Origin: Pantanalinema sp. GBBB05
GTDB lineage: Bacteria; Cyanobacteriota; Cyanobacteriia; Leptolyngbyales; Leptolyngbyaceae
Length of the DNA stretch: 64,000 nt
Direction of reading: 5' to 3'
Assembly (NCBI GenBank): GCA_016743235.1
Contig: VRZD01000019.1
Coordinates: 1-64,000, forward strand
This document shows, one piece after another, positions 3 to 18,632 of the stretch (its first letter is position 1; the number at the start of each line of letters is the position of its first letter). Both the position numbers and the translations under genes were made by a program. Under the pieces are notes generated by a model. It was not told where the DNA came from. It did not search any database and saw only the letters and a list, made by a program, of their open reading frames with translations.

Positions 3-3000
3 AATTATCGGGGCTTAGCCAGCAGTTCAGATCCCGATTATTATCAGTTTGTTATCACCGAAGATACGACCCTCACCCTCTCGCTTAATGGGGTCAGTGG
101 CGGCACACTGACGTTGAGTGGAGATGGTATCAGTGGCACAGAAACACCGAGCAGCACGATTTCTAACCGGGTCCTGTCTGCTGGAACCTACTATATTCGG
201 GTCGATCAATCGGCAGCAACGTCCACTGAGTATCAGCTCACACTCACGGGTGTCGCCAACAATGACTATCCCACGATCGTGGTGGGACTTGCCAACGATA
301 CAACCTGGTATGAGCTGACGAATGAGGATGGCATTACGTCTGACTCCACGGTGACGGGTGAGATTACGAGTGTGCATGGTGTAAGCGCTCTGCAAGCCAG
401 ATTCACCAATGCTCCATCCCAGAGTTTTGTCAACATTCAGTCCTGGCTACAATCCGGCAGCTTCACCTTAGATGCCACCACCCTGAACAGTATTTATGGT
501 GGGGTATTGCCACAGGGAGACAACATTTTAGAGTTCCGTGTGACGGACACAAGAGGGGCGATCACCACGGAAACTCTCACGATTCACCTGGATACCTTAG
601 CCCCCACTGCCCCAACAAATCTCACCCTGGCTTCAGTGGGTAGTACCGCGATCCGAGTCAGTGGCAGTGCGGAAGCGGGAGCGTTAGTGCAACTGTTTGA
701 TGGGGAAGATCCGATCGCTGAAGTTTGGGCGACAGCAACGGGCAGTTGGAGTGTCACCACCAGCCAGATCCGCAATGGTACTCACAATCTAACGGCTAAA
801 GCGATCGACATTGCGGGGAACGTTAGTACGTTATCAACTCCCCTCAGCACGACGATTACAACCTTAATTCCGAGCGCTCCCCAAGATCTACAGTTAACGG
901 CAGCAACGGATACTGGAACCAGCACCTCGGATGGCATTACTACCGATCTCACCCCACAAATCACGGGGAGTGCCGAAGCCGGAGCGACCGTCCGGGTTTG
1001 GCGGGAGCAACAACTGTTGGGCGAAACGGTGGCAGATGCCAATGGGCAATGGACTGTTGCCATCACGACTGACTTGCCAGAGGGCACTTATGCCTTCCGA
1101 GCGATCGCCCATAATGCGAATGGGGACAGTGCCGCCGCCACATTGAGCGTCACGATTGATGCAACCACCCCAATCGCTCAGGTGAAGACATTGGCGGCAG
1201 GAAGTGAGAGTCAGGTGGTTCTAGCGGATGGCGCAACGCTTACCGCTGGGACACGATTGACGGGAATAGTCAATGGCACAGGGTCGGCAGTGGTATCCCT
1301 CCGCTACCAGTTGGGGACGCTGCCAGAAGTGACCGTTCCGGTTGCCGAAAATGGGTTATTTATTCAATCCCTGGACTTTGGGGGATTAAGTGGGACTCAA
1401 ACGTTAACCGTCAGGTCAGTTGATCTGGCGGGGAACGAAACGGTGCAATCCTATACCGTGACCCTCGACACAACGGGAGGTGGCGTAACCGTTGCCCCGA
1501 TGCTATTGGCACAACTTACCCAAGATACGGGTACAGCGGATGATGGCTGGACGTATGCGCCGGGGATTGCTGGCATCGTGTCGGATCGCTCTCAGGTGAC
1601 CGGACTGTGGGCAACGTTTGACCCCGCATCGACCGCCACGTTTCAGGATGTTACGGCACTGTTGAATGCTGATGGCACATTTTCATTCGATGAGAGCCAA
1701 CTTGCCGACTTAACATATGACGGGTTAGTGGATGGGGCATACACCTTGCGCTTGCAAGTACAGACCGCCACGAATCAGACGATCGAGAAGTCGATCCAGT
1801 TCCAGTTAGATCGTTCTACCCCAACAGTATCGTTGCCCGACGTAATCGACGGCATTGCCTGGGAGCGCGGGATGCATTTCTTGGGAACGGTACAGGACAA
1901 CGCAAATGCGGTGCAAATGGTCTATGAAATTGCCCGTGCCAGTGACGGGCTATCTGTGGCACAGCACTCCTTTACCGTCGCCGGGTCGCTGACCGGAACC
2001 GCCTTTGATCAGGTGCTGGATGAGCTAACGAGCGGGAATTCAGTGCTACAGGATGAGGAAGTTTACAACCTGATCGTGACTAGCACGGACGTTGCGGGGA
2101 ATGCTCAACGCACTCGCTTCCAGTTCTTTGTCCCTGGCGATCGCCGGGTGGTGGATGATGATCCGTGGATCTCACCGACCAACCCCAATGATCCCCCGAC
2201 TGACCCTCGGACTCCCATTCCGGGTGTGACTCCGACGGCTGGTAATCTGAGCAGTTGGGGTTATGTTGGCAGTGGCGGTGGTTGGGGCTACTACGGCGGT
2301 AGTGGCTCAGGGGGTGGTTGGACACCAGGGTATGGTGGGCAGCTCACGCCGGAAGAGAAAGACGATCATCGCGGTCTGACGGGGACTGGCTATGAGTACG
2401 AATATGCCGAAAGTATTGATGAGATTGTCCTTCAGGCGGTGAGTTTTATCAGTACCAGTCCAGCCACCATTCACCAAAAAGCCGCCTTGAATAACCGCCT
2501 GAATATTCTGAAAGCAATTGGCAATCGGTTAAATACGCTGATTCATGCAGATGGGATCTTCGACAATGACGAAACGTGGCTTGAACAGATGCGTCCGGCA
2601 ATGGAGGGATTGTTTGTCGATGCGTATGATTCCAAGGGGGTTCGGGCTGGGGTGTATGACACCTTTATCCCGTGGGGTGGGGCATGGTTAGCCCAGCAGT
2701 TAGTGAAGACTTCGCTACCAGGGCAGAACCCACCGAAGGAGCCGCTATCCGTCCGGGAACAGGTGTTTCAAGCCACCCTGTTAGAGGTCATGACGGAGGT
2801 GTTTATGTCCCGCCAGATAGTGATGAGTTCGGAACTATCTGCTGCTGTGCTGGAGTTGGCGAAAACCTATGCCTGGTTAAATCCGAACCCAGAAACGATA
2901 GTGCCAGCTGAGGGTGAGGCGTTTGGCTTCCTAGATCTGTTGTGGCGGTTACAAGTGCCTGATGCTAATGGTCAGTTTAAGGGCAGTGGGGACATTACAG

Positions 3001-4421
3001 CGGCACTGGGACAAGCAGTAACTCAATTAGGGCACTTGCTGGAGGGGGTGACTGATCCAGTGAGGGCGATCCAGTTCATCAATAATTTGATCCAAGCTGC
3101 GAGCAATGTAACTTCCTTCAATACGGATGTGAAAAATGCCCAATTTGTTAGAGAGTTAGTGCAATTTGGGGTTGCATATATCAAGATGAATCCAAATGAT
3201 GCTCCAAGTTCTAGTGAAGATGCTCTCAACGCTTTTCTTAACAAATTATGGTCTGGAGAAGACCAGCACTTGGCACAAGGAGGATTGAGTAGTTTATTCG
3301 ATGGAGCGACAACACTTGAAGACCGAATAAAGGTACTCAACTTTCAGGAAAAGATGTTTACGGCAATCAATATGGTACAGGAACTAGAGACTGATCGAAG
3401 AAATCCATCCTATCTAGTTAATGTAGTGTCTGTCGCAGGCAGCTATGCAATTTCAAAAATTAATTCAGACGCTGGTTTTGCTTATGAAGCTAGTGACTTC
3501 TTGAAAAGCTTATGGGAAGCAGAAACACAAGGAGACCTGACTTTAGCTACTAATCGATTAAAAGCTTTCATAGCCAATGATGAAGTTGACCGTTTTCAAA
3601 GTTCTGAAGTTGGCGATGAATATTTGGAGAATAATATAACTCCCTTTAACCTTTCGAAATTTACCGCAGGGCTTGATGAGCTTTTAGCTTTAGAAAATTC
3701 TAAGTCTTTAACTCAGGTTCAAGCTTACCATAGGAACTTGCGACAAATTTTAAACCTGTATGACGTCGCAATTCGACGGAGTATACTTAAGTCTCCTGCA
3801 ATAATGGATAGAATTTGGAGACTTCAAACAGATGAATATGCTGTGAATTTGACAGCAGCATTACTGATAGGCTCCCAAAACTGGACTCAGATTTCTGGTC
3901 CGACACAAAGCGATTTTGGTAAGTATTTTGTTGGTCAATCAAATAACAGTGGATATCTAAGTGAAACAGCATACATGAACTGTTACGAAATGATTCTTTA
4001 TGCAGGTTATCTTGCCAAGAGAATTACACCTTCACAAATTCGGGATTTTTATATTGAAATGACTTCTAGTTTTGACGTAGGTGTTTGGGAGAAACTAGGA
4101 TGGAATGAAACATTGCCTGAGTATAAAGGTGTATTTCCAGCGCAAGGACAGTATACTAAAGCTCCATTTGTTGGTGAACTTATATTTTTTAGACCATTAG
4201 AAGGTTGGTTCTTCAATAGGAGCGTAACGAAATTGCCAACACATGTAGGTATTGCAATAAATAGTAGTGATATCATTCATTTGGTAGGAATGGACGATGC
4301 ATATTCCACGCCTGATCCTGTCCGTGCCATTGGGATTTCTAAAATGTATCAAAAACTGAAAGGACTTATACAAGTTGGTCCCAGCATTACCATTGCACGT
4401 AATCTTAAAGAATGGAACTAG
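3..4421 (+). CDS. Giant secreted Ig-repeat protein with C-terminal NlpC/P60-like domain (5' end outside window)
   Basis: The reading frame is open from base 3, so the N-terminus lies upstream. Order seen: a PPC-like beta domain (about 24-250, starting DPDYYQF), then five or six Bap/cadherin-like Ig modules (about 290-2125) with recurring 'D-T-x-x-P' and 'D-x-A-G-N' turns, a Gly/Trp/Tyr-rich linker (2245-2335), a long helical region (2380-3880) and a C-terminal domain (3950-4400). The last domain has a Cys codon at 3981 in N-C-Y-E-M, then G-E-L-I-F-F, T-H-V-G-I-A-I with His at 4242, and D-I-I-H with His at 4278. This Cys-His-His order, with the two His 12 residues apart, is that of NlpC/P60 peptidoglycan peptidases. 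GC drops from about two thirds (961-1020, hand count) to one third (3541-3600), so the tip looks exchanged. A surface-displayed peptidoglycan hydrolase or contact toxin is the likely role (inference). Confidence 0.75.
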   Translation, partial: NYRGLASSSDPDYYQFVITEDTTLTLSLNGVSGGTLTLSGDGISGTETPSSTISNRVLSAGTYYIRVDQSAATSTEYQLTLTGVANNDYPTIVVGLANDTTWYELTNEDGITSDSTVTGEITSVHGVSALQARFTNAPSQSFVNIQSWLQSGSFTLDATTLNSIYGGVLPQGDNILEFRVTDTRGAITTETLTIHLDTLAPTAPTNLTLASVGSTAIRVSGSAEAGALVQLFDGEDPIAEVWATATGSWSVTTSQIRNGTHNLTAKAIDIAGNVSTLSTPLSTTITTLIPSAPQDLQLTAATDTGTSTSDGITTDLTPQITGSAEAGATVRVWREQQLLGETVADANGQWTVAITTDLPEGTYAFRAIAHNANGDSAAATLSVTIDATTPIAQVKTLAAGSESQVVLADGATLTAGTRLTGIVNGTGSAVVSLRYQLGTLPEVTVPVAENGLFIQSLDFGGLSGTQTLTVRSVDLAGNETVQSYTVTLDTTGGGVTVAPMLLAQLTQDTGTADDGWTYAPGIAGIVSDRSQVTGLWATFDPASTATFQDVTALLNADGTFSFDESQLADLTYDGLVDGAYTLRLQVQTATNQTIEKSIQFQLDRSTPTVSLPDVIDGIAWERGMHFLGTVQDNANAVQMVYEIARASDGLSVAQHSFTVAGSLTGTAFDQVLDELTSGNSVLQDEEVYNLIVTSTDVAGNAQRTRFQFFVPGDRRVVDDDPWISPTNPNDPPTDPRTPIPGVTPTAGNLSSWGYVGSGGGWGYYGGSGSGGGWTPGYGGQLTPEEKDDHRGLTGTGYEYEYAESIDEIVLQAVSFISTSPATIHQKAALNNRLNILKAIGNRLNTLIHADGIFDNDETWLEQMRPAMEGLFVDAYDSKGVRAGVYDTFIPWGGAWLAQQLVKTSLPGQNPPKEPLSVREQVFQATLLEVMTEVFMSRQIVMSSELSAAVLELAKTYAWLNPNPETIVPAEGEAFGFLDLLWRLQVPDANGQFKGSGDITAALGQAVTQLGHLLEGVTDPVRAIQFINNLIQAASNVTSFNTDVKNAQFVRELVQFGVAYIKMNPNDAPSSSEDALNAFLNKLWSGEDQHLAQGGLSSLFDGATTLEDRIKVLNFQEKMFTAINMVQELETDRRNPSYLVNVVSVAGSYAISKINSDAGFAYEASDFLKSLWEAETQGDLTLATNRLKAFIANDEVDRFQSSEVGDEYLENNITPFNLSKFTAGLDELLALENSKSLTQVQAYHRNLRQILNLYDVAIRRSILKSPAIMDRIWRLQTDEYAVNLTAALLIGSQNWTQISGPTQSDFGKYFVGQSNNSGYLSETAYMNCYEMILYAGYLAKRITPSQIRDFYIEMTSSFDVGVWEKLGWNETLPEYKGVFPAQGQYTKAPFVGELIFFRPLEGWFFNRSVTKLPTHVGIAINSSDIIHLVGMDDAYSTPDPVRAIGISKMYQKLKGLIQVGPSITIARNLKEWN

Positions 4422-4432
4422 GGTAATCCAAT

Positions 4433-5701
4433 ATGATTTCTAAGAAATCCTGGAGAAAATGTTTCTGGCAATTGCCCATATTTTTTATAGGGCTGGCATC
4501 TTGCAGTGTGGAAAGCAACAAAATTGCGTCCTCTGAAGTTCCAGTGAATCAAGTTACCAAAACTTGCAAACAGCTCAAAGTTTGGAAAATTGCCAAACTT
4601 GAATGGGGTAAACCCTTAGAACTCAAAATTGCGGAACATTATCCTGTTCCTCCCGGTTCTATGAGAGCCATTGATTCTTCTAAAATCCCAGGACCTAAAT
4701 TCTATCCGCTGAGACCCAACCTAGCTGTGAACGCGTCTCCCAGTGGGCTTGCAGGTATTCTAAGAGATGGCGAAGGGGAAAATCAGCCACTGGTTGTTCT
4801 ACTTGATCACAATAGTCAAACAATTCGTTTACCCGGAAAGCCGTATGGCGTTAGTGTTCGGAGTGATGTTGGAGCATGGATTCTGTTGGGAGACAAACTC
4901 ATTCATTACGACACTCAAGGAAATGCCCTACGAACAGTCAATAACCCTGGGGGAGGACACTTGATTGGGGCTGAAGACAACTCTGTCTGGGTTTTAAGTA
5001 TTCATGAGGCTTGGTTTATCGACTCAGCAGGCAGGGTTTACGGTCAACGAAACTGGAATCGGTGGGATAGTTCAATTGTGCTAGGGAAGGACTTGTGCGG
5101 TTGGGATTGGGACACAAAACCGAGACAATCACGTTTGCAGTGTTTAACCCCGGATGGTCAGGAGCGGTACATTTCTTTGGATGGGTTAACTAAGCTGAGT
5201 GGAAAGATTCTAGCGGTCACCCAAAACTCGTTACTTACCAAAGGTAGCTGGATTTACACGTATGAAGATCGGCGGGGCAGCCAACAATTACGATTAGACA
5301 ACGTTGGACTAACAGCACAGGATGAAGCGTTTGCCTCGATCGATACCAATGATGGTCAGGCAGATGTTTGTTTATCAAATGGAACATCGCATAGAGTCTC
5401 TGTAAAATACACTCATCCATCATGGGACCCTTCACCGATTGTACCCAGGATGAGCGTGGTAGCGGTTGAAGGGAATCGAACATTAACTTATGGATATGAC
5501 CAAGCCATTTGGTATAAAAATGGTTTCATTGATCAGAAATTTAAGGTTAACGATTGGACCTATCGGAACGATGTTTTTCCCCATTTATGGGACATGCTTA
5601 AGTTCACTACTACAACGTTAAACAGTACCGATAGAACCATAATTCTGGCTACCAGTGGACCAACAGGTATTGCAATCATCGGGTTGCAGTGGCAGCCTTA
5701 A
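4433..5701 (+). CDS. Lipoprotein, candidate immunity protein for the upstream NlpC/P60-like domain
   Basis: 422 aa. A basic start (K4, K5, R8, K9), a hydrophobic stretch and the lipobox L-A-S-C with Cys24 mark a lipoprotein signal peptide. The ATG is 11 bp after the stop of the giant surface protein, so the two are almost certainly co-transcribed. The mature part is rich in Trp, Gly and short beta-like segments separated by turns (for example G-V-S-V-R-S-D-V-G-A-W), which suggests a beta-propeller; no catalytic motif was found. Base composition stays AT-richer than the glycosyltransferase gene that follows, matching the tip of the upstream protein. A periplasm-facing lipoprotein next to a peptidoglycan-cleaving domain fits an immunity role, but 422 aa is long for one and an accessory surface lipoprotein is equally possible. 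Confidence 0.7.
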   Translation: MISKKSWRKCFWQLPIFFIGLASCSVESNKIASSEVPVNQVTKTCKQLKVWKIAKLEWGKPLELKIAEHYPVPPGSMRAIDSSKIPGPKFYPLRPNLAVNASPSGLAGILRDGEGENQPLVVLLDHNSQTIRLPGKPYGVSVRSDVGAWILLGDKLIHYDTQGNALRTVNNPGGGHLIGAEDNSVWVLSIHEAWFIDSAGRVYGQRNWNRWDSSIVLGKDLCGWDWDTKPRQSRLQCLTPDGQERYISLDGLTKLSGKILAVTQNSLLTKGSWIYTYEDRRGSQQLRLDNVGLTAQDEAFASIDTNDGQADVCLSNGTSHRVSVKYTHPSWDPSPIVPRMSVVAVEGNRTLTYGYDQAIWYKNGFIDQKFKVNDWTYRNDVFPHLWDMLKFTTTTLNSTDRTIILATSGPTGIAIIGLQWQP

Positions 5702-5780: not shown

Positions 5781-7865
5781 ATGTTGCAATCTCATCCTGT
5801 GCCCAGGCATCTTTCTATTGTTGTCACAAATTACAACCGCACCCAATACCTCCCTTTTACCCTCAATAGCATCCTTGCTCAAACGTACCGTGACTTTGAG
5901 CTGTTAATCTGGGACGACGGTTCCACTGACGATTCCCTTGAGATCGCCCAAGCGTATGCCCAGAGAGACGATCGCATCCGGGTCATTGCCGCCTCTCACC
6001 AAGGGATTGCCCCCTCACTCAAAGGCGCGATCGCGGCGACAACCGCTCCCTATTTGGGTTGGGTCGATAGCGATGATTTGTTAGCACCCACCGCTTTGGC
6101 AGAAACCGCTGCCATTCTAGATGCTCATCCGAATGTGGGGATGGTCTACACCAACCACTTGATCATTGACGAACAGGGGAACGATAAGGGGTTAGGCAGG
6201 CTTTGCCGCATTCCCTATAGCCTAGATCGCTTGTTGGTCGAATTCATGACGTTCCACTTCCGGTTGATCCGGCGCTCGGTATATGAACAGGTGGGGGGCA
6301 TTGACCCCAGCTTCAGCACCTCCGAAGACTATGACCTGTGCCTCAAACTCTCGGAAGTCACCGACATTTATCATCTGCCCAAACCACTCTATTTCTATCG
6401 TCGCCACACCGATAACGCCACCAACCGCCAGCTCGACGTGATCCACTCCAGCCAGCGAGCCATTAGCAATGCGCTACAACGTCGGGGGTTAGATCACCAT
6501 TACAGTTTGAGTGTCACGGCAACCTACACATTGCGTCCGAAACCCGGTGCGCCGGATCGTTCTATCCCACCCATCCAATCGCTGGAACCCATTGCGCTCA
6601 GCCCCCTGGTTTCGATTATCATCCCTGCCTATAACGCGGCTCCTCGCCTTGTCCCCTGCCTACAAAGCTGTATCCGGCAAACCTATCCAAACCTGGAAAT
6701 TCTATTGGTCGATAACGGCTCGACCGATGAGACCGTGGCGATCGCCGAGCGGATGGCGGCTGAATCCAATCGTTCCATCCAAATTCTGCATTGTTCCCAA
6801 CCGGGAGCCAACCATGCCCGTAACCTGGGCTGCACCCAGGCGCAAGGTGACTATATTCAATGGCTGGACGCGGATGATGACCTTGCCCTAGACAAGCTAG
6901 AGCGCCAAGTGATTGCCCTGATCCAACACCCCGAAGCTGACCTAGCCTATGGCGACTGGGATTGGTGCTTTTGGGAACAGCGGCAACTGAGCGATCAGTT
7001 GCGTTTCGCCGATCGCGCCTATGACGATCTTCCCCTGCAACTCTTGCTCGATAACTGGCGACCACCCCATGCTTATCTGCTCCGTCGTCGAGCTGCACTC
7101 CGCTTACACCACCTGCAAGCCTGGAATCCTGAAACGCGAGTGTACATGGATCGGGAATACTTTACGATCGCGGCTTTGTTAGGGCTACGGTTCCTGTATG
7201 TTCCTGATAGCCTGGTTCGCTATCACCGCTGGTCTACGACTCAGGTGAGCCGCCGTGCCACGTATCCAGAACGGATTCAGCATCGCCACCGGATCTTTCG
7301 TCGGTTTCAAGACATTGCCCATCTATGTCAGGGCGATCAACTCACCCCAGCCCATCAATTTCTGTTGCAACAAAACTGGCAGTTGTGGCAACCCACCTTC
7401 ACCCTGGAACGTTTGGATGATCAGGTATTTGCGCTCCATCACCGCGATCGCCCAGAGTCACTCCCCTTGACATGGCAGGAAGCAAACATCGCTCATGCCC
7501 TGTTACACGTTGCTGCCCCTCGTGCGCTTGAAGACCATACTCGTAAGGTGATTCAACAGCTATGGTTGGAGATTCTGGCAGAACTGAGCCAGGGCAATTC
7601 AGCATTGGACTATAGCCTGATCGCGGACAAACTGGCTTGGCGCATCGGCAGTGGCACTGCCCCTGATTCAGCCACCGCTAACCCGGAGCCAGATCGATCG
7701 CGGGAGACTCCATCTGATGCCACCCGATCGCACCTCCACCCCTTATTGCAAGAAGTCCCCCTCTTCACCCCCCTATTTGCGGAAGAACGATTCGTGGTGC
7801 AGCAGTTTTTGGAGCGATTGCGAAATCAGTGCTGGCTCAAGCCCATTGAATGGAATCACCCTTGA
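5781..7865 (+). CDS. Bifunctional-type tandem family-2 glycosyltransferase
   Basis: 694 aa from the ATG at 5781. An in-frame ATG at 5655 overlaps the lipoprotein gene and gives a non-conserved-looking N-terminus, so it was not used. Two GT-A domains lie in tandem. The first begins S-I-V-V-T-N-Y-N-R (residue 10 onward) with W-D-D-G-S-T-D-D and a V-D-S-D-D metal site near residue 95. The second begins S-I-I-I-P-A-Y-N (about residue 270) with V-D-N-G-S-T-D-E and L-D-A-D-D-D. Such proteins transfer two sugars to polysaccharide or glycoprotein acceptors at the cytoplasmic face. The remaining C-terminal 190 residues are helical and unassigned. The gene follows the surface protein and lipoprotein on the same strand, so glycosylation of surface material is plausible. 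GC-rich with HIP1 sites, unlike the gene before it. Confidence 0.85.
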   Translation: MLQSHPVPRHLSIVVTNYNRTQYLPFTLNSILAQTYRDFELLIWDDGSTDDSLEIAQAYAQRDDRIRVIAASHQGIAPSLKGAIAATTAPYLGWVDSDDLLAPTALAETAAILDAHPNVGMVYTNHLIIDEQGNDKGLGRLCRIPYSLDRLLVEFMTFHFRLIRRSVYEQVGGIDPSFSTSEDYDLCLKLSEVTDIYHLPKPLYFYRRHTDNATNRQLDVIHSSQRAISNALQRRGLDHHYSLSVTATYTLRPKPGAPDRSIPPIQSLEPIALSPLVSIIIPAYNAAPRLVPCLQSCIRQTYPNLEILLVDNGSTDETVAIAERMAAESNRSIQILHCSQPGANHARNLGCTQAQGDYIQWLDADDDLALDKLERQVIALIQHPEADLAYGDWDWCFWEQRQLSDQLRFADRAYDDLPLQLLLDNWRPPHAYLLRRRAALRLHHLQAWNPETRVYMDREYFTIAALLGLRFLYVPDSLVRYHRWSTTQVSRRATYPERIQHRHRIFRRFQDIAHLCQGDQLTPAHQFLLQQNWQLWQPTFTLERLDDQVFALHHRDRPESLPLTWQEANIAHALLHVAAPRALEDHTRKVIQQLWLEILAELSQGNSALDYSLIADKLAWRIGSGTAPDSATANPEPDRSRETPSDATRSHLHPLLQEVPLFTPLFAEERFVVQQFLERLRNQCWLKPIEWNHP

Positions 7866-8204
7866 GGCTAACGAGCAAATTCGTGCTCACTAAACACCTG
7901 TATGTTGTTTAACACTGTTTTGATCAAGACTCACAATCAGGTGCAGGGATTATACCCAGCTATAAGGGCTCTCCTAAGTCTCCTTAAGCTAATCTTGCAG
8001 TGAGATATTCTCCACAGACAGTTTAAGATTTAGCTCTAGAACCGCTTTAAAAGAATTTTGAAAATGACTGAGATGATGCTGTCATCCTCTATACGAGAGT
8101 CTTTCCACTAGTAGAACACTTGTACTATGCCACAGTAATGTGATAAAGTGCTATTATGTAAAGATTTTAACGTCTTGCTGAATCAAAGACTGGAGTATAA
8201 AGCA
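7866..8204. other. Intergenic region before the toxin-antitoxin pair
   Basis: AT-rich and without a convincing ORF. The only structure seen is the inverted repeat at 8109-8127, listed separately. It separates the GC-rich glycosyltransferase from the accessory block and may hold the left island boundary, but no direct repeat or integrase was found. Confidence 0.5.
8109..8127. promoter_or_regulatory. Inverted repeat, candidate autoregulatory operator of the Panacea TA pair
   Basis: TAGTAGAA and TTGTACTA flank CAC; the arms match at 7 of 8 positions. The right arm contains TTGTAC, which could serve as a -35 hexamer, and TATTAT at 8152 lies further down. The repeat sits 78 bp before the antitoxin start, where TA operons usually bind their own antitoxin. 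Function is inferred. Confidence 0.35.
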
Positions 8205-8750
8205 ATGACGGAAAAGAACCGACTGAAAGAACTTGTCCATCATATTTGCTATAAGTGTGGAGGCAAAAATGAACTTGGTGCAACTAAGCTGAATAAAATA
8301 CTTTGGTTTGCAGACAGCCTTGCTTATAAACAGACAGGTAAATCGATTACTGGTAGCCGATACAAGAAACTTCAGCATGGTCCAGTTCCCTTTGAAATTA
8401 ACTCTGTCTTGAAAGAGTTAGAGAACGAAGGCAAGATTTTAGTATACAAACACGAGTATTTTGGGTTGCCTAAAAAGACTTTTTTGCTTTTGGAGCACCC
8501 ATTAGACGAAATATTTTCAAGGGATGAATTGGAGTTCGTCGATCTCCTGACTGCGGAAATTTGTGGTGGACATACGGCAAAATCAATTAGTGAATTATCG
8601 CATGACATTGTATGGGAGGCTGCAAGCATGGGTGAAGAGATACCCTTATCAGCCGTTCTTGCCACTGATGAGGCTATCTTAAATGAAGAAGATATTGCTT
8701 GGGCTAATGCGGTTGTAAGCCGTATTCAGGCTGAAGGTACTGCCAAGTAA
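8205..8750 (+). CDS. Panacea-domain (DUF4065/SocA-like) antitoxin
   Basis: 181 aa from the ATG at 8205, chosen because TGGAG at 8191-8195 gives a good ribosome binding site; an upstream in-frame ATG at 8148 lacks one. The segment K-L-N-K-I-L-W-F-A-D ... Y-K-K-L-Q-H-G-P-V-P (about residues 28-65) is the signature of the Panacea domain, the neutralising domain of PanA antitoxins, which pair with unrelated toxins. The C-terminal part (E-L-S-H-D, then an acidic helix) also fits. The gene ends in TAA followed at once by the ATG of the next gene, the order and spacing of an antitoxin-toxin operon. No HIP1 site and AT-rich, unlike core genes. Confidence 0.8.
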   Translation: MTEKNRLKELVHHICYKCGGKNELGATKLNKILWFADSLAYKQTGKSITGSRYKKLQHGPVPFEINSVLKELENEGKILVYKHEYFGLPKKTFLLLEHPLDEIFSRDELEFVDLLTAEICGGHTAKSISELSHDIVWEAASMGEEIPLSAVLATDEAILNEEDIAWANAVVSRIQAEGTAK

Positions 8751-9062
8751 ATGTTTGATCCGCAGTGGTTTGCTAAAACGATTGTTGAAACTCGATATGT
8801 TCAAGAGCAGGTTGCAATCTTGCATGATCAATACGCACGTTTTGATCAGGTTTGGGAAGGCTTGACATGGTTGCTGGCTAGAAAAGCACATGAGTTAGGA
8901 CGACCGTTTAGAGGCTATAGGGTTTACAAACACTCTGGGATTACACGAGGTAATCAGTCACCTGCCCTAACCTTACTCTTTGAGGTCAGAGATTGCGAGG
9001 TTGAGATTATTTCTATTCAAGTTTCAGACCCAGAATGCAATTTTGAAGAGCTTGATTTTTGA
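8751..9062 (+). CDS. Putative toxin of the Panacea pair (RelE/ParE-like fold suspected)
   Basis: 103 aa. Its ATG directly abuts the stop codon of the Panacea antitoxin, so translation is coupled. An N-terminal helical part (E-T-R-Y-V-Q-E-Q ... W-E-G-L-T-W-L-L-A-R-K) is followed by strands Y-R-V-Y-K and T-L-L-F-E-V-R-D-C-E-V-E-I-I-S-I, resembling the core sheet of RelE/ParE toxins. That family assignment is tentative; the toxin role rests mainly on the partner. Catalytic residues cannot be named from sequence alone. Confidence 0.6.
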   Translation: MFDPQWFAKTIVETRYVQEQVAILHDQYARFDQVWEGLTWLLARKAHELGRPFRGYRVYKHSGITRGNQSPALTLLFEVRDCEVEIISIQVSDPECNFEELDF

Positions 9063-15434: not shown

Positions 15435-18400
15435 ATGCCTAAATTTACACTGGCTCGGTTTTTCGTCCTGGCTGCCCTGGTGATGGCATCTAATGTCGTG
15501 GGCTATGCCGTATCGGCTTCGTTATTTATGAGCCAGGAAGGAGCCGAAGCGATTCCAGTGTTTTATCTGGTACTTGGACTGTTATCGATGCCAGTCTCGA
15601 TCGGCTTTTCCAAAGTGATCGATCGGGTAGAACGAACGCAATTATTCCGTTATCTGTTACTCGGAGCGCTGATTTGGGTGGGTCTCCTATACAGTGTGAT
15701 GAATCTGGAGAATCTACCCACTTATTACAGCATTTACATCAGCACAAGTTTGATTGACTTACAAATTAATGTGCTGTTTTGGACTTTAGTTTCTGACTAT
15801 TTCACCACGCTGGAACTGGAGCGTCATACATCATTTCTAGCGATGGGGATGACCTCCGGGGGGTTAGTTGGAGGAGTTCTGGTCCGGCTACTGACTGAAC
15901 ATATGCCAACGCAGAATTTGCTGTTGGGCTTGCCAATGTTGTATGGAGTCATGATTGCTGTTCTGGGGCTGATTCGGCGATCGGATACCGCGATCGCTAC
16001 CTATCACACTAAAGATCCAGATCTTCAATGGGTCAGTAGCTTGAGAACGTTTCCGAAGCTCCTGTCTCGCTACCCAATTATTGTGCTGTTGGCAACCAGT
16101 ACTGCCTTATCTGTGCAGCTTTGGGGTATGAGTGAACTCCAATTTTTCACAATTTATTCGCAAGAGTTTGCAGAACAGGAGGATTTAACCGGATTTCTTG
16201 GCTTACTTAGCGCCGTATTTGGAGCGATGGAACTGGCTGTTACCTATTTTGTCACCCGACCCTTGATTCGGGAGTGGGGCATCAGCCGGATGAATTTGGT
16301 CTATCCCTTTACCACCTTAATCAGTTTCCTAGGGCTGACCTTTAACTTCCGCTTACCTACCGCGATCGTCGTTAATCTCAACTACGAAACGCTTTACAGT
16401 AGCATTGCTCAACCTGTCCAAAACTTAAATTACACCGCTATTCCCCATCGGTTTGCTGGTCGGGTTCGGGTGATTATTGATGGTCTGCTTTATCCCACCT
16501 GCCAGGCTGCGACAGGCGGTCTATTGTTGGCACAACAAACCTTTTTCAGCCCCTTTGAAATGGCAGTCAGCGGGGTTATCCTCAGTTTTGCCTTCTTGTT
16601 CGTTGGTTATCTCACCAGTAAAACGTACCTGCGATCGATGCTGGCCCGGTTACGCTCTGGCTCTCTGGATTTGGATGACATTCGGGATAATTTGGTGCAA
16701 GTCCCCGATTCCTACACAACAGAAGTCAGCGAATTACTGACCAGTGATGACCCAAGTGCTCAGATTTTGGGATTAGAATTAGCGGCTCGGTTAAAAAACC
16801 CCAGTCAGTTTTTGGCGGAAATCCAAACTTTGTTGTTACAGGCTAATGCGGAGGTGCAAGAAGCGGTAGTCCGGTTTTTGGCAACCGGAAATCATCCGGA
16901 TTTTTATCGCTACTTACAAGTGCAATTGGTATCAGAGAGTGAAGCCGTCCGCGAAACTGTCTTAGAAACCTTGATCGCCATGCACCGATCGCTGTCCACT
17001 ATCCAACTCTGCTTCTTTCTAGACGATCCCAGCCCTGGTGTCCAGGCACTAGCTTGTGTGGCCGCCTGGCAACATAGCCCAATGGAACCCTTGGTGCAAC
17101 AGTCTTATGAGCAGGCATGGCAGACGTTTCGGACTGGCTCTGAAATGATTGCTCGTCGGGCGCACCAAACGATGATCCGGGCAATTCGGCGAATTGGCGA
17201 TCGCCAGTTAATTCCATTGCTGAAAGAAGTGCTAGTGGGGGCGAGTGCTGTAGTCAAGCAAGCGGGATTGGAGACCTTAGCCACCCTGGCAACTCCGGAT
17301 GACCATGAACTAGAGATCCTGGCTATTAACGAATTAGAGCATGATGATCCCCAGGTGCGGGCAGCGGCGATCAATCTGCTCCGGGTGCTGCAAGCAGAAG
17401 ATGCTTTAGTCCTACTGGTGACCAGTTTGGAAGACCCAAGTTTAATTGTCCGACAGTCAGTCATTACTGCGATCGCGACTTATGGAGATGTGGCATTATC
17501 TTTGGTTCAAGGTTACTTGAGTGATGCTCGGCAAGAAGTGGTGGAAGCGGCGATCGCCGCGATCGGGCAAATTCGGACCCGTCGAGCTGAGGATCTGTTG
17601 CTACAGCATTTGCAACCGGACTATCGCCGCCTAGCCCGAACGTTACGCTGGCAGGAGCAGATTCCTAGCACTGCTTCCCATTGGCAACCCTTAGCCATTG
17701 CGCTGCAAGATGCCCACGATCGACTGCTCCGACGGGTTTTACTGGTACTATCAGCTTTGGGTCATGCTCAACTGTTGCAGGGTATGCACCAACGGCTGTA
17801 TTCCACCGATCAACGGCAGCGGTTAAATGCCGTGGAAACGCTGGCTTCTCTGGAACAGCGGCGATTTGTGCAACCAATGCTCCCGCTGTTGGAATCGATC
17901 GCCAGAGAGCCGTGGCAAGCTGAGCTATCTAAGGCTGCTCCAACTGAAGGGGGACTAACCCCTAATCAAGCTACGCTGTTGCTGGAAATTTTGGAGTGTG
18001 ACGATCGCTGGATTCGCATTGGGGCGATTATGACTCTAGCGGCTGAGCATTATCCCATCCCAGTGAAAGCGATTACTGATGACGATTTTTTGGTCAAAAC
18101 CGTTGCCCAAACGGCAGCTCAGTTTTCTCCATTCCAGACCAATCCGGAGGAATTGCTCTTGAGTCGGTTATTTTTCCTCAAGCAAGTTTCGATCTTGCAC
18201 AACTTACCGCTCGACGACTTACTACAAATCGATCGCACCTTGAAAGAACAAGATTTTCTGAAAGGTGAAGTGATTTTTAAGGAAGGCAGCTATGGCGAGG
18301 ACTTTTATCTGATTTACCGCGGCGAAGTTCAGATTCTCAAGCAGGTCAAGCCACGCCGTGCCCCTGGTGGGTCAAATCGCGATTATCGGCTCTTGAGTGC

Positions 18401-18632
18401 CTCACAACGTCAACTAGCACGGCTGCAACCGGGTGAATTCTTTGGTGATATGGAATTTTTTGATCAACTTCCTCGATCGAGTACCGCTGTTGCGGTAACG
18501 GATTGCACGTTGCTGGCATTAAGCAAAAGTGATTTTTATAATCTGATTACCCAACGTCCCGAAGTACCGCTGCAAATGTGTCGCGTATTGAGTCTGCGAG
18601 TGCGGGACGCCAACCGCCAGTTGGAAGATTAA
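15435..18632 (+). CDS. MFS/ADP-ATP-carrier-like membrane protein fused to HEAT repeats and a cyclic-nucleotide-binding domain
   Basis: 1065 aa. Residues 1-410 contain about ten to twelve membrane segments of MFS/NTT type (V-F-Y-L-V-L-G-L-L-S-M-P ... Y-F-V-T-R-P-L). Residues 430-870 are HEAT-like repeats (for example D-P-Q-V-R-A-A-A-I-N-L-L-R). Residues about 913-1060 form a cNMP-binding domain with G-E-V-I-F-K-E-G, Y-L-I-Y-R-G-E-V and the phosphate cassette G-E-F-F-G-D-M-E-F-F ... R-S-S-T. The protein may be a transporter or membrane sensor gated by cAMP or cGMP. It meets the histidine kinase gene tail to tail with a 4-nt overlap. An adenylate cyclase is encoded 7 kb away. Substrate unknown. 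Confidence 0.85.
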   Translation: MPKFTLARFFVLAALVMASNVVGYAVSASLFMSQEGAEAIPVFYLVLGLLSMPVSIGFSKVIDRVERTQLFRYLLLGALIWVGLLYSVMNLENLPTYYSIYISTSLIDLQINVLFWTLVSDYFTTLELERHTSFLAMGMTSGGLVGGVLVRLLTEHMPTQNLLLGLPMLYGVMIAVLGLIRRSDTAIATYHTKDPDLQWVSSLRTFPKLLSRYPIIVLLATSTALSVQLWGMSELQFFTIYSQEFAEQEDLTGFLGLLSAVFGAMELAVTYFVTRPLIREWGISRMNLVYPFTTLISFLGLTFNFRLPTAIVVNLNYETLYSSIAQPVQNLNYTAIPHRFAGRVRVIIDGLLYPTCQAATGGLLLAQQTFFSPFEMAVSGVILSFAFLFVGYLTSKTYLRSMLARLRSGSLDLDDIRDNLVQVPDSYTTEVSELLTSDDPSAQILGLELAARLKNPSQFLAEIQTLLLQANAEVQEAVVRFLATGNHPDFYRYLQVQLVSESEAVRETVLETLIAMHRSLSTIQLCFFLDDPSPGVQALACVAAWQHSPMEPLVQQSYEQAWQTFRTGSEMIARRAHQTMIRAIRRIGDRQLIPLLKEVLVGASAVVKQAGLETLATLATPDDHELEILAINELEHDDPQVRAAAINLLRVLQAEDALVLLVTSLEDPSLIVRQSVITAIATYGDVALSLVQGYLSDARQEVVEAAIAAIGQIRTRRAEDLLLQHLQPDYRRLARTLRWQEQIPSTASHWQPLAIALQDAHDRLLRRVLLVLSALGHAQLLQGMHQRLYSTDQRQRLNAVETLASLEQRRFVQPMLPLLESIAREPWQAELSKAAPTEGGLTPNQATLLLEILECDDRWIRIGAIMTLAAEHYPIPVKAITDDDFLVKTVAQTAAQFSPFQTNPEELLLSRLFFLKQVSILHNLPLDDLLQIDRTLKEQDFLKGEVIFKEGSYGEDFYLIYRGEVQILKQVKPRRAPGGSNRDYRLLSASQRQLARLQPGEFFGDMEFFDQLPRSSTAVAVTDCTLLALSKSDFYNLITQRPEVPLQMCRVLSLRVRDANRQLED

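Follow-up and report, generated by a model that had tools for sequence, protein, structure and literature searches.

We analysed 64,000 nucleotides of DNA from the cyanobacterium Pantanalinema sp. GBBB05 (bases 1–64000 of contig VRZD01000019.1, here C70; hereafter the window) and found at its very start a gene for a giant surface-type protein ending in a putative NlpC/P60 tip, directly followed by a lipoprotein gene. The locus probably represents a polymorphic toxin-immunity system, composed of a wall-cutting NlpC/P60 tip and a cognate propeller lipoprotein. We consider it very probable that the tip is an exchangeable toxin directed at the cell wall of rivals, which it would cut, and that the lipoprotein encoded behind it serves as the antidote. 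This reading is carried by the fold assignment of the tip, its conserved Cys-His dyad, its C-terminal position on unrelated carriers, a tightly linked partner with an export signal and the occurrence of different tips on shared stalks. A preliminary description made from the window alone had proposed a wall-attacking polymorphic toxin with a cognate immunity lipoprotein, and it is this reading that the comparative data (fold, carriers, shared stalks bearing other tips) support best. Systems of this kind are already known; what looks new is the family of the antidote.

The tip of the giant protein resembles NlpC/P60 enzymes

All genes and domains described for this locus lie on the forward strand. 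The giant protein (3–4421; at least 1472 residues) matches the Ig-like families Big_13 (E = 5.9e-31) and Big_6 (2.8e-16). Because the window begins at base 1 of its contig, one of 94 in the 7.18 Mb genome (G000), the open reading frame (ORF) is open at its 5' end and the N-terminus lies beyond the contig end. The part available consists of Ig-like repeats, a Gly-rich linker, a helical repeat stalk (the last two recognized by eye) and the C-terminal tip. A stretch comprising the end of the Ig repeats, the linker and the helical repeats (1791–3578) is common to a stalk gene of Kovacikia minuta CCNUW1 (copy 1, see below), with 28–86% identity per 50-residue block. The arrangement given in the preliminary description, an Ig-repeat protein with the tip at its very end and a lipoprotein gene 11 bp later, was thus confirmed.

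Alignment, profile and fold matches indicate that the last 199 residues (3822–4421) form a divergent NlpC/P60 domain. We aligned 12 distinct tips, the window's included, and found 12 invariant positions, among them M-N-C-x-E and H-V. The predicted nucleophile Cys1327 (TGT, 3981–3983) belongs to M-N-C and opens a predicted helix, and the predicted catalytic His1414 (CAT, 4242–4244), in an HV(G/A) motif, aligns with the His of HMGIYIG in LytE; both are kept in 12/12 tips at identities down to 22%. At the third position of the NlpC/P60 triad, 12 residues beyond this His, the window has His1426 (CAT, 4278–4280); it is the only tip with His there, Kovacikia (G005) having Asn and the other 10 Ser. 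The Cys, His and His codons to which the preliminary description had pointed are all in frame and in the order proposed; as a catalytic set, the Cys and the first His stand, but the second His does not, and the alignment points to a Cys-His dyad as the conserved set rather than Cys-His-His. No Asp was found among the invariant columns of the 12 tips, while a 2012 survey of polymorphic toxins describes Tox-NLPC/P60 by conserved C, H and D (PMC3482391).

A variable third residue is what one would expect if the tip were an NlpC/P60 relative without activity, serving only in wall binding and as an anchor for the adhesin, and non-catalytic proteins of this class exist, RipD being one by title. We regard this as most improbable, given that Cys and His are invariant in all 12 tips even at 22% identity and that Tse1 functions as a Cys-His dyad with no need of the third residue (PMC3391265).

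Several searches place the tips near known wall hydrolases. Pfam NLPC_P60 (PF00877) was matched by 8/12 tips at E up to 1 (best 2.4e-5); set against its gathering score of 23 bits, the full-length protein of Kordia zhangzhouensis (L014) reached 23.5 bits and that of K. periserrulae (L013) 22.4 bits, and the window tip gave no match. Searched against the PDB, a profile of the 12 tips retrieved wall hydrolases including LytE (best E 1.7e-4), followed by MepS (0.065) and, above that value, RipA. In the AlphaFold model of the tip, built with 8 alignment rows, a helix (residues 54–64 in model numbering) begins with the Cys, Cys54, and a beta-sheet holds the His (strands 141–145 and 150–155), which is the predicted arrangement of a papain-like NlpC/P60 fold. 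The first 27 Foldseek matches of this model were NlpC/P60 proteins or wall hydrolases, none of them at E up to 0.001. With VIA the model aligned at a Z of 9.9 to 7cfl (root-mean-square deviation 2.9 Å over 119 residues) and of 9.4 to MepS (8xud), and the ten best rows are NlpC/P60 enzymes by title or by name. Comparison of a predicted structure with NlpC/P60 folds, suggested earlier as a check, therefore came out in favour of the assignment.

The tips are distinct from the housekeeping members of the class. Each of the 8 genomes searched contains a single NLPC_P60 match, and the frames recovered from 6 of them (the window genome's own not among these) all show the YDCSG...THVG pattern, in which 50 residues separate Cys from His. 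In 11/12 tips this distance is 72–103 residues, and in the tip of genome G099 it is 172. Spacing and motif type speak against the tip being simply a housekeeping NlpC/P60 domain. When the six housekeeping frames were compared with the tips by profile, the GDLxFF...HVG half aligned and the Cys did not (62% probability), so that sequence by itself supports the His half and the fold match the Cys half.

The tip is a C-terminal module on unrelated carriers

We looked for homologous tips in 97 genomes of relatives and 386 genomes of the phylum, two partial and overlapping samples that both include the window's genome. Tips were present in 3/97 and 4/386 genomes, the window's own counted in each. 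A scan of species genomes confirmed 7 of 65 pattern matches, giving 7 tip loci, one of which was again that of Cyanothece sp. SIO2G6 (G044). With the 12-tip profile and a limit of E 0.001, 11/386 phylum genomes matched, the added ones mostly weakly; six of the 11 had nothing but short matches, no better than 4e-6, and did not enter the tip count. Also left out of the tip set were a match in G110 (1.8e-11, in a 92-residue frame starting near a contig end) and a second, distant match in G099 (L028) with transporter-like ORFs behind it. The principal G099 match (7e-37) sits on another carrier and has no adjoining propeller gene. The tip nearest to the window's is that of Kovacikia, a member of the same family, Leptolyngbyaceae, with 43% identity.

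The tip reaches the stop codon in 12/12 ORFs and is a C-terminal module found on unrelated carriers in three phyla. Ig/helical stalks end in it in the window and in Kovacikia, and stalks bearing a subtilase (Peptidase_S8) do so in G128 and Oscillatoria princeps; in a metagenome-assembled genome (MAG) of Oscillatoriales (L016) the stalk resembles that of G128. Proteins with the core domain of extracellular contractile injection systems (eCIS), DUF4157, end in the tip in Cyanothece sp. SIO2G6 (contig of locus L015), K. periserrulae and K. zhangzhouensis, and an RHS protein does so in Candidatus Electrothrix gigas. The DUF4157/eCIS_core domain was found at loci L009, L013 and L014 and had no match in the 1472 residues available of the window protein, its N-terminus not included. 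Ten of the 12 tips end ORFs of at least 431 residues (1472 in the window); the ORF in G421 has 335 residues and is open at the contig end, and that of a Bacteroidia MAG (L017) has 158. At this last locus (L017, 2663–3603), where the tip has no carrier, the ORF behind it still encodes a small protein whose N-terminus is signal-like.

A tree of the tips supported an Oscillatoriales group, a Bacteroidota group and the joining of the window with Kovacikia, and left the placements of the G044, Electrothrix and G099 tips unsupported. The G044 tip is 46–49% identical to the Bacteroidota tips, and we make no claim of a Bacteroidota origin for it because its place in the tree is unsupported.

An origin in a prophage, plasmid or defence system was also considered. 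Neither the tip nor the lipoprotein matched PHROGs (E up to 1) or PADLOC (E up to 0.1), none of 5 pattern matches in IMG/VR was confirmed as a relative, and a plasmid search with a Kordia tip returned a single record, the Kovacikia plasmid. Within the scope of these searches such an origin was rejected.

The partner is a predicted propeller linked to the tip

The proposed immunity lipoprotein (4433–5701; 422 residues) begins with MISKKSWRKCFWQLPIFFIGLASC, and its L-A-S-C lipobox ends at codon 4502–4504; the mature part is a predicted beta-propeller. Its model (predicted local distance difference test, pLDDT, 70) gave 384 Foldseek matches at E up to 0.001, headed by designed propellers, virginiamycin B lyase, clathrin terminal domains and NHL domains, and VIA matches with Z up to 12.8. 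Z values of 10–13 are common for repeat folds, so we claim the fold class, a propeller, and not a family. The window lipoprotein had no match in Pfam or NCBIfam, and the profile of its family (A5) none among PDB chains, each at E up to 10. The propeller antidote family looks new.

The propeller gene lies directly 3' of the tip in the 7 cyanobacterial loci found with both, with gaps of 11, 53, -7, -10, -13, -10 and 0 bp. The family occurs in 3/97 and 3/386 genomes; the genomes concerned (G000, G005, G044, G128 and G421) all have the tip, and the propeller was found in no tip-less genome of either sample. The preliminary description had held that a lipoprotein widespread without the tip would speak against the pairing; such a distribution was not seen, and only one copy lacks an adjoining tip. 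Identities among tips and among propellers are correlated (r = 0.89 over 21 pairs), a value reached by 15 of 5040 relabelings. All 7 propellers have an N-terminal hydrophobic segment, and as a periplasmic site of action requires an export signal, these count in favour of the pairing. The lipobox noted in the preliminary description is present in the window copy; the other six tip-linked propellers have the hydrophobic segment instead of a classical lipobox.

The copy with no adjoining tip belongs to the window's own genome, where it sits on contig C58 (L010, 9326–10420), behind an ABC-permease-like ORF and with no toxin beside it. One in-frame stop separates its hydrophobic segment from the mature part, and it is probably a decayed orphan immunity gene.

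Outside the cyanobacteria the partner changes. At the three Bacteroidota loci the tip is followed by a gene for a different small protein. Its signal-like N-terminus is above the threshold in L017, marginal in L014 and lacking in L013; in Electrothrix the next gene encodes 148 residues with a strongly hydrophobic N-terminus. Taken together, 9/12 next genes pass the hydrophobicity threshold for an export signal compared with 57/160 ORFs in 14 loci (binomial P = 0.006, a statistic that counts as weak support because 7 of the 12 next genes are homologous). A lipoprotein-like ORF roughly 1 kb behind the G099 tip gene (L027, 4975–6138) seemingly carries NHL-type repeats, judged by eye, and may be the counterpart of the propeller immunity.

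Different tips occur on shared stalks

The preliminary description had suggested comparing homologues for tip swapping with matched downstream genes, and we observed shared stalks with different tips and matched genes behind them for two stalk types, those of Oscillatoriales and of Kovacikia. The Kovacikia plasmid carries several copies of the same stalk. Copy 1 (L008, 10584–15551) and copy 2 (L061, 6411–8795) show 100% identity along 400 residues, after which their sequences part. The NlpC/P60 tip belongs to an 875-residue ORF that lies about 630 bp further on from copy 1 and begins midway through an Ig domain, like an orphan cassette. Beyond transposase ORFs behind copy 2 there is a GHL10 tip (7.3e-11), followed by an exported, membrane-anchored WG-repeat protein. 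The pairings on or near the Kovacikia Ig stalk are thus NlpC/P60 with propeller and, past the transposase ORFs, GHL10 with WG-repeat protein.

On the Oscillatoriales stalks, NlpC/P60 is paired with the propeller, a GHL10-related tip with a WG-repeat protein, and PG_binding_1 with a protein resembling leucine-rich repeat (LRR) proteins. The second of these pairings is a cassette of G128, consisting of a piece of the other stalk type and a GHL10-related tip, then the WG-repeat gene; this tip has 20–30% identity per block to the GHL10 tip and no Pfam match of its own. A second G128 cassette has another tip at the contig end, of unassigned family. The G128 ORFs on contigs C193 and C202 start mid-stalk, and no toxin-immunity pair was recognized for the C193 cassette. 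The third pairing is in L016, where two neighbouring genes have a common stalk and different tips, the second tip being PG_binding_1 and the next gene encoding an exported protein with leucine-rich repeats (by eye). The same carriers with different tips and matched downstream genes, together with orphan cassettes, are what polymorphic toxins display; C-terminal modularity, linkage, different tips on shared stalks and mid-stalk cassettes are marks of polymorphic toxin-immunity systems.

Several of these loci stand out in their own right. Two different stalk types come with a GHL10 or GHL10-related tip ahead of an exported WG-repeat protein (L061, 1881–5357; L065, 2981–6092), a second candidate toxin-immunity pair. 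In L016 (6433–10531), the second stalk gene ends in PG_binding_1 plus an NCH-type papain-like domain, the latter by eye, ahead of the exported LRR-like protein. On the Kovacikia plasmid an RHS ORF of 343 residues ends in Tlde1 (1e-13), and the gene behind it encodes a WG-repeat protein with a membrane anchor (L062, 9772–11753); upstream of this RHS ORF lies another with a different end (L062, 12455–13594). In K. periserrulae (L013, 7037–8718), a second DUF4157 gene has another tip and a lipoprotein-like gene 2 bases on, likely a further toxin-immunity pair. Tlde1 is a wall-acting toxin domain of type VI secretion systems (T6SS). In Cwp19, GHL10 is a peptidoglycan lytic transglycosylase domain (PMC6016235). 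Given the functions of GHL10, Tlde1 and NlpC/P60, three kinds of tip here would be expected to attack the wall, with exported repeat or propeller proteins as neighbours.

Alternative readings and points against a wall-cutting toxin

A papain-like fold could also cut or modify protein or lipid, and the tip might be a toxin with a target other than peptidoglycan, possibly one within a eukaryotic predator, as is the case for some eCIS cargo. Carriers with DUF4157 belong to the eCIS cargo, whose toxins can affect yeast besides bacteria (PMC8213781), and 1/12 tips weakly matches LRAT (E 0.26). Yet the next gene has a hydrophobic start in 9/12 loci (10 with the marginal L014), a partner that an anti-eukaryotic toxin would not need; tips associated with the same stalks include GHL10, a lytic transglycosylase domain in Cwp19 (PMC6016235); and a Tlde1 domain ends an RHS ORF of the same Kovacikia plasmid. 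We therefore consider a non-wall target unlikely.

NlpC/P60 enzymes are mostly housekeeping. With this background, and with one PF00877 match in each of the eight genomes searched, the tip could be imagined as the producer's own enzyme for remodelling or processing its surface layer, the propeller as its regulator or chaperone, and no rival cell would be involved. The rarity of the pair (3/97 and 3/386 genomes), the four unrelated carriers, the different tips on shared stalks, the cassettes starting mid-stalk and the lone decayed immunity copy make this quite improbable.

The reading as a wall-cutting toxin with its antidote has to be held against several observations that weigh against it. 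At the level of the domain, the third triad residue is not conserved across the 12 tips, the window tip taken alone has no Pfam or NCBIfam match (E up to 10), and the tip model is of medium confidence (pLDDT 67; predicted template modelling score 0.73). As to carriers, the L017 tip is an ORF of its own with no carrier read in the preceding 600 bases, the N-terminus of the giant protein, which would show its export route, lies beyond the contig end, and at the C-terminus of copy 1, the longest stalk gene beside the Kovacikia tip cassette, we recognized neither a tip nor an immunity gene. As to partners, 3/12 tip loci depart from the pattern: the next ORF in L013 is 149 bp off and lacks a signal, that in G099 is 75 residues long and likewise has none (the lipoprotein-like ORF lies further on), and the marginal next gene in L014 fails the hydrophobicity threshold though it starts with MKKTILYLLLIFNYNC.

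Comparison with known systems

The closest class described is Tox-NLPC/P60 of the 2012 survey (Biol Direct, PMC3482391), which gives it for Bacteroidetes and delta-proteobacteria only, with '-' in place of immunity. The NlpC/P60 toxin domain, the RHS and PVC-metallopeptidase (DUF4157) carriers and the predicted wall degradation are alike. In contrast to that description, the tips reported here also occur in cyanobacteria, on Ig- and subtilase-stalk carriers, and come with three candidate immunity families.

In mechanism the pair recalls Tse1 and Tsi1 of the Pseudomonas aeruginosa T6SS (PMC3391265). In Tse1, an NlpC/P60 enzyme, the dyad is Cys-His and the third position is Cys; its inhibitor Tsi1, a periplasmic partial beta-propeller, reaches in with a loop and binds the catalytic His of Tse1 through a Ser of that loop. 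Shared, here by prediction, are a Cys-His NlpC/P60 domain without the third His and a periplasmic all-beta, propeller-related partner. Tse1 is a single-domain T6SS effector, whereas the tip is fused to carriers in 11/12 cases. Unlike Tsi1, the propellers have an N-terminal membrane anchor or lipobox, and their profile finds no PDB chain (Tsi1 taken to be in the PDB from its crystal-structure paper), so the likeness is one of mechanism and not of membership. Nor was Tsi1 among the best 50 VIA rows for the propeller model.

Orphan cdiA-CT/cdiI modules of contact-dependent inhibition (CDI) and Rhs systems (PMC3150448) likewise combine a long conserved stick, an exchangeable C-terminal toxin and an immunity gene behind it, and they keep upstream homology as the tip cassettes do. 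The differences are the Ig/helical or subtilase-linked stalk and toxins expected here to act on the wall. Finally, the three homologues with a tip on a DUF4157 protein share the known layout of eCIS cargo (PMC8213781, PMC11297309); the word 'NlpC' is absent from the main text of both papers. Among the literature matches listed, judged by titles and abstract openings, we found no description of a tip-propeller pair, which does not establish its absence from print.

Proposed mechanism and wider implications

From these features we infer toxicity, peptidoglycan cleavage, neutralization, export and a delivery route, and propose the following scheme. The stalk would display or release the giant protein with its replaceable C-terminal NlpC/P60 cysteine hydrolase, and the tip would be delivered into the periplasm of a neighbouring cell. 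There, the Cys1327-His1414 dyad would cut peptide bonds in the stem peptides of peptidoglycan. In the producer's periplasm the lipid-anchored propeller would attach to the tip and occlude its active site, in the way that Tsi1 blocks Tse1.

If correct, this would supply an immunity family for the Tox-NLPC/P60 toxin class and extend the class to cyanobacteria. It would also provide a second, apparently independent propeller that blocks an NlpC/P60 enzyme, making convergence in toxin inhibition directly testable, and a candidate antibacterial weapon for filamentous cyanobacteria, of which few are described in the literature surveyed by titles and abstract openings. We regard as evenly balanced the wider idea that filamentous cyanobacteria carry a wall-attack arsenal of exported stalks and RHS proteins whose tips are exchanged as units with exported antidotes made of repeats or propellers (NlpC/P60-propeller, GHL10-WG, Tlde1-WG and PG_binding_1-LRR), in which the NlpC/P60 tip changes its antidote family across carriers and three phyla and the propeller solution arose independently of Tse1/Tsi1.

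Neighbouring genes and other observations

Directly behind the pair is a gene for a family 2 glycosyltransferase (5781–7865; PF00535, 7.3e-66), which may modify the stalk by glycosylation. ORFs resembling it, judged by eye, adjoin the toxin loci of Kovacikia (L008, L061–L064) and of Oscillatoria princeps (L018). Further on, a SocA/Panacea antitoxin-like gene (8148–9062; PF13274, 6e-16) is directly followed by a 103-residue ORF with no family match; the two may form an intracellular toxin-antitoxin pair in the vicinity of the surface toxin. About 10 kb away, the window encodes a 1065-residue protein (15435–18632) that combines a membrane part weakly resembling the major facilitator superfamily (2.5e-5, below the curated cut-off), HEAT repeats and a cyclic-nucleotide-binding domain. 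In K. zhangzhouensis (L014, 3565–4135) we noticed a long simple-sequence run whose translation is poly-Val in one frame and poly-Leu in a second.

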